Positions 7,484-39,963 of a DNA stretch of 52,019 nt are shown here, in pieces. Under the pieces are notes generated by a model. It saw only the letters and a program-made list of their open reading frames with translations, was not told where the DNA came from and did not search any database. The position numbers were made by a program, and so were the translations under genes. The stretch is from Oscillospiraceae bacterium (GTDB lineage: Bacteria; Bacillota; Clostridia; Oscillospirales; Ruminococcaceae). The stretch covers positions 1 through 52,019 of the forward strand of contig JAJUHO010000002.1 in NCBI GenBank assembly GCA_029267825.1, read 5' to 3'. Every line of letters begins with the position of its first letter. Position 1 is the first letter of the stretch.

Positions 7484-9198
7484 AATACATTAACAAAAAA
7501 GAATATATATCCATGTATGGGCCGACAACAGGCGACAAGGTACGTCTTGGCGATACGGATTTATTTATAGAAGTTGAAAAGGATTATACCGTATACGGCG
7601 ACGAAATGAAATTCGGGGGCGGCAAAACAATACGTGACGGGATGGGGCAAAATTCAGACATAACCTGTAATGGCGGAGCACTTGACACGGTTATCACCAA
7701 CGCTCTCATTCTTGATTACTGGGGCATAGTAAAAGCCGACATCGGCATAAAAGATGGCAAAATTGCCGGAATAGGCAAATCCGGAAATCCTGACATAATG
7801 GACAATGTCGACCCTAATTTAATCGTTGGTGCCGGCACTGAAGTAATTGCCGGAGAAGGAACGATTGTCACCGCCGGCGGCATAGACACTCATGTCCACT
7901 ACATTTGCCCCCAGCAAATCGAAACTTCACTTTACTCCGGAATAACCACAATGATTGGCGGTGGAACCGGCCCTGCTGTCGGCACGTTTGCAACAACCTG
8001 CACCCCCGGAATTTTCAATATCCACAGGATGCTTGAAGCAACGGAGGAATTCCCCATGAATTTCGGATTTTTCGGAAAAGCCAACGCTTCCTCCGAAGAA
8101 CCACTCATAGAGCAAATAGAAGCCGGAGCAATCGGCCTTAAACTTCATGAGGATTGGGGAACTACTCCATCCGCAATAAACACAAGCCTTTGCGTTGCAG
8201 ACAAATATGATGTGCAAATAACCATACATACCGATACGCTCAACGAAGCGGGATTTTTTGAATCAACACGCGATGCAATAGCAGGACGGGCCATCCACAC
8301 CTACCATACTGAAGGCGCCGGTGGAGGACATGCCCCGGACATTATCAAAGCTGCAGGGCTGCCAAACGTTATGCCTTCCTCCACAAGCCCAACAATGCCT
8401 TTTACCGTAAATACAATAGATGAGCACCTTGATATGATAATGGTATGCCATCATCTTGACCCAAAACTGCCCGAAGATGTTGCCTTTGCAAGGTCAAGAA
8501 TACGTTATGGCACTCTTGCCGCCGAAGATATCCTGCATGATATGGGCGCTATTTCCATACTTAATTCAGACTCGCAAGCCATGGGACGTCCGGCCGAAGT
8601 CATTACAAGGGCATGGCAATGTGCAGACAAAATGAAAAAGCAAAAAGGGCAGTTGCCTGAAGCCATGGGCGAAAACAACGACAATTTCCGTGCAAAGAGA
8701 TATGTGGCAAAATACACTATAAATCCTGCAATCGCACATGGGGTTTCCGAATACATAGGCTCAATAGAAAAAGGCAAAATTGCGGACCTTGTGCTTTGGG
8801 ACCCTAAATTTTTCGGTGTAAAACCGGATATGATAATAAAAGGAGGCTTTATAGCCGCTGCAAAAATGGGGGATGCAAATGCTTCAATCCCCACTCCTCA
8901 ACCGGTAATCATGAGAAATATGTGGGGAGCTTATGGAAAAGCCAGAGCAAACACAAGCATAACCTTTGTCAGCAAAGCAGCCTATGCAAACGGAATAAAA
9001 GAAAAACTCGGGCTTGAAAAAATAGTCCTGCCGGTTAAAAATTGCCGTACGGTAGGCAAAAAAGATATGATTTTAAACAGTGCCACTCCGGACATTCAAG
9101 TTGACCCTCAAACTTACATGGTTAAAATCAACGGCATCCAAGCGGATTGTAAGCCCTCAGAAACGCTGCCGCTTTGCAGAAGATATTTTCTTTTTTAA
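7480..9198 (+). CDS. ureC: Urease subunit alpha
   Basis: [16 protein letters not shown]; carbamylated-Lys motif [35 protein letters not shown]-terminus RRYFLF. Confidence 0.98.
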
Positions 9199-37665: not shown

Positions 37666-39588
37666 TCATATTTCCATTATAACCGGAAGAATCATCGGAG
37701 TCCTCTTTGTTTTTGAAAAAATAAAATCAGAAAGCACGTCTTTAAGTTTTGTCTTTATTGCATTCCATTCCTTTGTGTCGTTGTCAAGGCACTGCTGCAA
37801 GGTTTTTGAAAGCAATGCCTTTGCCTGATTCATAAGCTCCTCTGATTCCCTGACATACACAAATCCCCTTGAAACTATATCCGGCCCGGCAAGTATCGTG
37901 CCGCTTTCGCTTTCAATAGTCGCAACCACAATTATAAGCCCGTCCTGTGCAAGGTGCTTGCGGTCACGCAGCACTATCGAACCGACATCGCCCACTCCAA
38001 GTCCGTCAACAAGGATTTTTCCCGCCGGGACCTGTGAGGTTATCTTCATTTCAATGCCATTTGTTTCAATAACATTGCCTATCTCGGCAATTATTATGTT
38101 TTCCTCAGGAATTCCCATTTCCTTTGCGGTCTGGGCATGCTTTTTAAGATGCTTGTATTCGCCGTGAACCGGAATAAAGAATTTTGGCTTTGTAAGCGCC
38201 ATCATCAGCTTTTGCTCATCCTGACAGGCGTGTCCGGAAACGTGCACCTCGTACATTGCCTCGTAAACCACCTCGGCCCCGGCTTTCATAAGCTCATTGA
38301 CAACCTTTGTCACAAGCTTTTCGTTCCCCGGAATTGGCGTCGCCGAAATGATTATAAAGTCCATCGGAGTTATATTGACCTTTTTATGGTCATTCATTGC
38401 CATTCTTGTGAGCGCGCTCATTGGCTCGCCCTGGCTTCCGGTAGTAATAAGCACTATCTTTTCGTTCGGATATTTTCCCATAAGGTCTATGTCAATTATA
38501 ATCCCCTGCGGAACCGAAAGATAGCCAAGCTCTATGGCCGTATTGATTACATTCACCATGCTTCTGCCGAATATTGCCACTTTCCTGCCGTATCTTTGGG
38601 CGCAGTCTATTATCTGCTGCACACGGTGGATATTTGATGAAAACGTAGCAATTATTATCCTTTTGCCCTCGGCCTTGTCAAAAAGCTTTTCAAAGGATTC
38701 TCCCACTTTGCGTTCGGTTTGGGTATATCCTTTTCTTTCGCTGTTGGTTGAATCGGACATGAGCGCAAGCACGCCCCTGTTGCCAAGCTCTCCGAATCGT
38801 GCAAGGTCTATTACCCCGCCCTCGATTGGCGTGAAGTCTACCTTGAAATCTCCGGTATGCACAACTACTCCGGCCGGAGTGTGTATTGCAAGCGCAACCG
38901 CATCCGGTATCGAATGGTTTACCCGTATAAACTCAACCGCCATGCAGCCCATCTTTACGGTTTGCTTTGGTTTTACAACATTAAGGCTGACTTTTCCTGA
39001 AAGCCCGTGTTCTTTAAGCTTGCTTTCAATCAATCCTATTGTAAGCCTTGTGGCATATACCGGAACATTTATCTTCTTTAAAAGATAAGCAAGCCCGCCT
39101 ATATGGTCCTCGTGGCCGTGGGTGATAACAATCCCGCGGATTTTATCCACATTCTTTTCAAGGTATGCAAAGTCAGGTATCACTATGTCAACTCCGGGCA
39201 TTTCACTGTCCGGAAAGGTCATTCCGCAATCCACAACAAAAAGGTCGTTTGAGCATTCAAAAACGGTAATATTCTTGCCTACTTCATTAAGTCCGCCCAA
39301 AGGAATGATTTTAAGCGTGGAGCTTTTCCCTCGCTTTTCCGGCTGTGTCCTTGAATTCCTTACCGGCTGTGCTGACTCTTTCTTTACAGAACCCTGTTCC
39401 TGCTTTGAATTCATCTTTTCTTCATATTCCGCAAAATTTGCGGCCTTTTGAGGCTTCATTTTTGCCTGCCTTTTTGACTGAGCGCCCTGCCTTGCAGTCT
39501 TTTTAACGTTTGTTCCCTCTGTTTTTTCCGCTTTTTTAGGCGATATTTTTTCCCCGAAAAACGGGAGTTTTTCAAAATTATTATCCAC
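37666..39588 (-). CDS. rnj: Ribonuclease J with basic, low-complexity N-terminal extension
   Basis: LKIIPLGGLNEVGKNITVFECSNDLFVVDCGMTFPD; VITHGHEDHIGGL; GTG start at 39588 with SD GAGGG. Confidence 0.93.
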   Translation of the reverse strand: MDNNFEKLPFFGEKISPKKAEKTEGTNVKKTARQGAQSKRQAKMKPQKAANFAEYEEKMNSKQEQGSVKKESAQPVRNSRTQPEKRGKSSTLKIIPLGGLNEVGKNITVFECSNDLFVVDCGMTFPDSEMPGVDIVIPDFAYLEKNVDKIRGIVITHGHEDHIGGLAYLLKKINVPVYATRLTIGLIESKLKEHGLSGKVSLNVVKPKQTVKMGCMAVEFIRVNHSIPDAVALAIHTPAGVVVHTGDFKVDFTPIEGGVIDLARFGELGNRGVLALMSDSTNSERKGYTQTERKVGESFEKLFDKAEGKRIIIATFSSNIHRVQQIIDCAQRYGRKVAIFGRSMVNVINTAIELGYLSVPQGIIIDIDLMGKYPNEKIVLITTGSQGEPMSALTRMAMNDHKKVNITPMDFIIISATPIPGNEKLVTKVVNELMKAGAEVVYEAMYEVHVSGHACQDEQKLMMALTKPKFFIPVHGEYKHLKKHAQTAKEMGIPEENIIIAEIGNVIETNGIEMKITSQVPAGKILVDGLGVGDVGSIVLRDRKHLAQDGLIIVVATIESESGTILAGPDIVSRGFVYVRESEELMNQAKALLSKTLQQCLDNDTKEWNAIKTKLKDVLSDFIFSKTKRTPMILPVIMEI

Positions 39589-39802
39589 TTTTTTCCCTCT
39601 CTTTTGAATTTCCGGACCGCAAAAAACAAAAAGACAAAAGGTCTTGCGGCAAAGCTTGCGCAAACCCCAGATGCCAAATTAAATTTTACTTTAAGCGGTT
39701 CCGGATATTGAAAATATAAACCGTATCTTTTGCCCGCGCTTTTGCAAAGCAAATTGCAACGTATGTTTTATGTATCCGCCCGAATTTGACCGCCTTGAAA
39801 AA

Positions 39803-39875
39803 CCTTGCATAATTTTGCCCGTTTTATCCCCATCGCATTATTCAAATCAAAATTACGGCAAGGGGATAAAACGGG
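39803..39875 (-). promoter_or_regulatory. Crossing (ABA'B') inverted repeats in the rnj leader, candidate bistable RNA element
   Basis: Minus strand CCCGTTTTATCCCC + TTGCCGTAATTTTG + 16 nt + GGGGATAAAACGGG + CAAAATTATGCAAGG + TTTTT. Confidence 0.65.
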
Positions 39876-39934
39876 ATAATCCGACCACAGCATTAAAAAC
39901 AGACTTTTCCAACCGAACACAAATATGTGATTTT

Positions 39935-39963
39935 ATTATAACCGCAAAAGTGTTCCGTGTCAA
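39935..39963 (-). promoter_or_regulatory. Consensus sigma-A promoter upstream of rnj
   Basis: Minus strand TTGACA - 17 nt - TATAAT. Confidence 0.85.

Follow-up and report, generated by a model that had tools for sequence, protein, structure and literature searches.

A candidate MazF/EndoA cleavage site in the conserved leader of the RNase J gene in Oscillospirales

The DNA analysed here (the window) is a stretch of 52,019 nucleotides from a single contig (JAJUHO010000002.1) of one Oscillospiraceae genome, and the element of interest lies throughout on its minus strand. It precedes rnj, the gene for ribonuclease J (37666..39588, minus strand; Pfam domains RNase_J_b_CASP and RNase_J_C), which begins with a GTG codon at 39588-39586. 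A preliminary description of this DNA had placed a perfect promoter and a leader of about 340 nt upstream of the gene, and both were confirmed: the sequence TTGACA-17-TATAAT at 39963-39935 matches the consensus at 12 of 12 positions, transcription probably starts at about 39929-39928, and a Shine-Dalgarno sequence, GAGAGGG, can be read at 39595..39601. About 10 nt into the predicted transcript stands the motif UGUUCGG (39913..39919). Further downstream, at 39769..39774, the leader contains the hexamer UACAUA, which is identical in a congeneric species and is a candidate site for the MazF/EndoA endoribonuclease, with the cut, U^ACAUA, expected between 39774 and 39773.

At the gathering score, Rfam returned no matches on this leader or on 18 related loci. 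The window does contain a strong match to 5_ureB_sRNA (RF02514, E 6e-39) elsewhere, at 7630-7927 on the minus strand, which may reflect conserved urease coding sequence. A mobile or dispersed repeat was rejected as the source of the leader, given that the repeat arm A described below is unique in the window with up to two mismatches allowed, and a comparison of the leader segment with its own genome gave no second strong match. The leader also holds an open frame of 50 codons (39768-39920, minus strand) running from the GUG of GUGUUCGG to a UAA inside UACAUAA; in the congener the stop is codon 21. We rejected a leader peptide starting at the GTG at 39920, as the frame varies in length among relatives, lacks a Shine-Dalgarno sequence and is stopped early in the congener.

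Between the two motifs the leader carries the inverted repeats that had first drawn attention to it. In transcript order these are arm A, CCCGUUUUAUCCCC (39875-39862), arm B, UUGCCGUAAUUUUG (39861-39848), arm A', GGGGAUAAAACGGG (39831-39818), which is complementary to A at 14 of 14 positions, and B', CAAAAUUAUGCAAGG (39817-39803), followed by five uridines (U5, 39802-39798). The perfect A:A' complementarity, the bulged B:B' pairing, the U5 tract and the order A-B-A'-B' are thus present as originally reported. Our search reported no inverted repeat in the region other than the A:A' stem, whose 14 bp compare with no more than 11 bp for perfect stems in dinucleotide-shuffled leaders. The B:B' duplex, composed of CCUUGC/GCAAGG and UAAUUUUG/CAAAAUUA on either side of the bulge, has an energy of -14.8 kcal/mol.

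It had been proposed that these crossing stems are mutually exclusive folds switching rnj transcription, with A:A' acting as antiterminator and B:B' with U5 as terminator. The presence of both repeats in crossing order, and the retention of B' and U5 in the congener, are what would be expected of such a device. The predicted folding is not. In the folded ensemble the probability of A:A' is 0.999 and that of B:B' 2e-9 (1e-12 in the congener), A:A' being favoured by about 12 kcal/mol, so that competition between the two stems is not borne out. B and the spacer that follows it fall within the A:A' hairpin loop, where they are partly paired with each other. The terminator fares no better: a terminator scan called none at B:B' with U5, where the loop would measure 30 nt, and U5 is unlikely to be a free terminator tail because it is complementary to GGAAAA near the 5' end, within a pairing of UUGGAAAA (39912-39905) with UUUUUCAA (39802-39795) that has a probability of 0.74 in a 135-nt transcript and extends to 11-12 bp in the congener.

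The congener (JAIHAL010000003.1, L039) is the sole other species of the genus that was compared. Over the stretch that begins at the -35 box and ends with U5, the two sequences are 97-98% identical, as against 68% identity at fourfold-degenerate sites of rnj. Of the four differences, B accounts for two, and the promoter spacer and the loop spacer differ at one position each; A, A', B', U5 and all 54 nt preceding A are unchanged, and within the hairpin the changes are confined to the loop. Both substitutions in B weaken B:B' (from -14.8 to -10.2 kcal/mol) and neither is matched by a compensating change in B', so that the compensatory changes anticipated from homologues did not appear in this one congener. 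The A-B-A'-B' layout was seen in none of the other rnj leaders examined, and is therefore known only from this two-species genus. Taken together, these observations make the transcription switch barely credible, and the region is better described as one constrained and, by prediction, very stable hairpin within a constrained 5' domain than as a balanced pair of folds. A simpler view would regard the hairpin (-28.9 kcal/mol) merely as a lineage-specific 5' stabiliser of a leader that has no switch, in keeping with arms that are conserved around a changing loop. This too seems very improbable to us, since conservation extends almost unbroken to the promoter spacer and the 54 nt ahead of A, and since motifs shared across the order, described below, are under selection.

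The rnj leaders compared came from the family of this bacterium, from the remainder of its order, from further orders within the class and from 80 GTDB contigs. Throughout Oscillospirales (about 100 genera) the rnj promoter is in most cases nearly identical to that of the window, nearly all members of the order having a 12/12 or 11/12 match to TTGACA-17-TATAAT, and leaders mostly measure 100-600 nt. These leaders fold better than their shuffled counterparts (mean z -2.06, n=45). The identity with the congener, the better-than-shuffled folding and the sharing of rnj-specific motifs strongly support a conserved regulatory role for the long rnj leader. Of the autoregulatory RNA switch originally suggested, it is thus the regulatory leader that stands and the A/B switch that does not. 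In Ruminococcus rnj leaders (L040-L118) we also observed a hairpin, G(R)CUUUAUUGGC...GCCAUUAA(G)AUAU, about 50 nt past the transcription start, with apparently covarying pairs (GGCA/UGCC, GGCG/CGCC, AUGGCG/CGUCAU); it is found in most R. flavefaciens-type rnj leaders and has no Rfam match. A second motif, GCUUGUACGUUUGCCUG, recurs in the Ruminococcus leaders.

The first of the shared motifs is UGUUCGG. In 20 of 87 rnj leaders (0.4 expected) TGTTCGG stands no more than 36 nt from the -10 box, at a position 13-17 nt past the box, and the shorter TGTTCG is found there in 13 of 28 rnj leaders of the family, compared with 0 of 30 rny and 0 of 26 pnp leaders. A general signal following promoters was rejected, because other matches to TGTTCGG after promoters in these genomes are at control level, and so was a 5'-terminal hairpin that would present CGG (mean z of local structure 0.15). 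The motif is complementary to CCGAACA, a conserved segment of 5S rRNA; possible pairing with 5S rRNA was dropped, as the variants of the motif at class level would break the complementarity. In other orders of Clostridia (L189, L192, L187, L207) the rnj transcripts begin with UGUUCGG-like sequences (UGUUCGG, UGGUCGG), and in three of them the leader is only 45-62 nt long, so that this motif predates the long leaders.

The second motif is UACAUA. This hexamer, by far the most enriched in the leader body, is present in 38 of 85 rnj leaders where 3.8±1.9 are expected, almost always as a single copy, and about half of the rnj leaders of the order are without it. TACATT, TACATC and TACATG are at chance, and stretches of equal length upstream of the promoter contain UACAUA in 2 of 85 cases. 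The enrichment was reproduced in 40 genomes of the order fetched after the hypothesis had been stated (21 of 40 leaders, 2.2 expected; the highest of 60 shuffles reached 6), and it is specific to the strand, with 35 of 82 leaders carrying the site in sense orientation and 5 of 82 in antisense. The site lies downstream of the 5' motif and ahead of the Shine-Dalgarno sequence, mostly 27-285 nt before the start codon; two shorter distances probably stem from mis-called starts. The two motifs co-occur (Fisher p 5e-4, a value which, like the other raw p-values, overstates significance, as the sampled sequences are related). A signal common to RNA-decay genes was rejected: in the same genomes UACAUA occurs in 0 of 30 rny and 1 of 26 pnp leaders, the rny leaders lacking both motifs and the pnp leaders nearly so. 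In other orders of Clostridia leader UACAUA is at chance (3 of 23, 2.4 expected).

Order-wide, UACAUA is predicted to be unpaired more often than similar hexamers (0.62 vs 0.49, p 0.0025). In the leader of the window, folding prediction places its UACA in a duplex with the 5' motif (P 0.89), which would hinder an enzyme specific for single strands. A closing helix of UGUUCGG with UACAUA across the order was considered and rejected, since matched pairs do no better than swapped ones (p 0.31) and since, strong though the pairing is in this genus, across species it falls below the level reached once the middle is shuffled.

Both motifs could also be read by RNase J itself or by another RNA-binding protein, which would bind single-stranded UGUUCGG and UACAUA and adjust translation or decay, in a feedback of the type known for E. 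coli rne and with no part for MazF. We regard such feedback as a tentative alternative with a modest chance of being correct. Several observations agree with it: both motifs are specific to rnj and have the character of short sequence signals, UGUUCGG is found on the short leaders of other orders too (L189, L187, L207), the strong promoter is combined with GTG or TTG starts, and the leader is conserved and structured, as would be expected of an autoregulated RNase. It leaves unexplained, however, why the sequence retained should be the exact MazF hexamer, including its sixth base, and why that hexamer should be missing from the reading frame.

The coding sequences of rnj contain no UACAUA at all: none in 128 genes, where about 51.7 are expected, and none in the gene of the window (37666..39588, minus strand). 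For 107 genes assessed by synonymous shuffling the expectation is 45.9, whereas TACATT is close to its expectation; the family alone gives 0 against 7.8, and 21 additional genera 0 against 5.8. A generic avoidance of the hexamer was rejected, since flanking reading frames contain 59 copies (45.6 expected), and rny reading frames contain 7 (5.4 expected). The depletion is mild in other orders of Clostridia (10 vs 19.9) and weaker in the replication set (3 vs 7.8), partly owing to start codons that are hard to place; most of the open-frame copies there fall within the first ~90 nt, where the start codon is uncertain. As side observations, PNPase reading frames (L280-L309) contain 0 copies where 5.0 are expected, a weaker hint of avoidance, and upstream of rny (L250-L279) all 30 loci have a consensus promoter of at least 11/12, 30-525 nt before the start. 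Confinement to the sense strand, removal from the reading frame and replication in the fresh sample support the conclusion that UACAUA in rnj transcripts is under selection as a predicted cleavage site.

The enzyme that would act on it is widely encoded. PF02452 (PemK/MazF) was found in 58 of 61 relatives, and the MazF of the analysed genome (L312:623-997) is identical to B. subtilis EndoA, known from structures 4ME7 and 4MDX, at 70 of 108 positions. In this genome the gene (G000:C191; L354:2023-2397, L312:623-997) is solitary, no MazE-like reading frame being found beside it, and upstream lies an amidohydrolase-like gene on the opposite strand. One relative (L311) has mazF after alr without mazE, and another (L310) has an intact alr-mazE-mazF arrangement. 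B. subtilis EndoA cuts U^ACAU only if the next base is A, and its cleavage becomes visible in cells deficient in RNase J1 and is lost with ndoA (PMC11780869). The hexamer, with its necessary sixth A, is the same in both systems; what sets the present case apart is that the rnj leader has one placed and retained site and the reading frame has been purged of the hexamer. The MazF of Symbiobacterium thermophilum, a host often placed near Clostridia, likewise prefers UACAUA, but the targets reported for it are coding sequences and do not include the rnj leader (PMC10893535).

Our preferred reading, to which we assign a probability of roughly one half, is that MazF cleaves the leader of rnj on the downstream side of its 5' domain and leaves an intact, translatable rnj message. 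The leader would consist of a very strong promoter, UGUUCGG as a recognition motif, a folded 5' domain (for this genus, UGUUCGG with the dominant A:A' hairpin) and one MazF/EndoA site. Active chromosomal MazF would cut at U^ACAUA and detach the 5' domain; the shortened message would keep its Shine-Dalgarno sequence and, because the reading frame has been purged of UACAUA, an intact coding sequence. Synthesis of RNase J would then continue or rise while other messages bearing UACAUA are cut. Since EndoA cleavage appears in B. subtilis without RNase J1, a homeostatic loop could form.

The same site evidence could instead indicate a shut-off, in which cleavage leads to decay and less RNase J is made when the toxin acts. 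Any cut generates a fresh 5' end, and in B. subtilis a trimming activity yields 5'-monophosphates at EndoA ends (PMC11780869). We consider this outcome unlikely, because a decay signal would work equally well inside the reading frame, from which UACAUA has nevertheless been removed, and because the site spares the Shine-Dalgarno sequence. A decay signal needs no clean reading frame, and it is for this reason that we infer release from the 5' domain and not destruction of the message. As to how the 5' domain might restrain expression before cleavage, the predicted cost of opening the ribosome site falls only from 6.7 to 6.05 kcal/mol after the cut (62 leaders), and in the leader of the window it is 3.3 both before and after. 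This small gain suggests that restraint may act through mRNA stability or through a protein bound to UGUUCGG, and masking of the ribosome site is less favoured than either.

In the literature searched, whose coverage was partial and does not prove novelty, a MazF site in rnj was nowhere described. E. coli MazF is associated with leaderless and short-leader messages in translation under stress, a model that is disputed. The likeness lies in a cut upstream of the start codon that leaves a translatable message; E. coli MazF, however, cuts at ACA, whereas here the target would be a rare hexamer at one conserved site in one gene, with the Shine-Dalgarno sequence kept. The autoregulated 5' UTR of E. 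coli rne resembles the rnj leader in its length, its structure and the strong promoter ahead of it, and in belonging to the gene of a key RNase. It differs in that the conserved features of the rnj leader are dominated by a MazF site, the two sequences are unrelated, and feedback on rnj is hypothetical.

Which transcripts chromosomal MazF enzymes act on physiologically has long been an open question. A single MazF site that is kept in the leader of rnj, the gene for the major 5' exonuclease, and removed from its coding sequence across an order amounts to direct evolutionary evidence for a specific target, and it connects the toxin with an enzyme whose loss reportedly switches EndoA on in B. 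subtilis. Judged from sequence comparison, this suggests that in a large group of gut bacteria two RNA-cutting enzymes, RNase J and MazF, are wired together. More speculatively, MazF in Oscillospirales might be less a toxin than one component of a homeostat of RNA decay, an idea beside which we note that mazF of this genus has no adjacent antitoxin gene: it would sense low RNase J activity and free the rnj message of a restraining leader by way of a dedicated UACAUA, the reading frame itself being kept clear of the hexamer.
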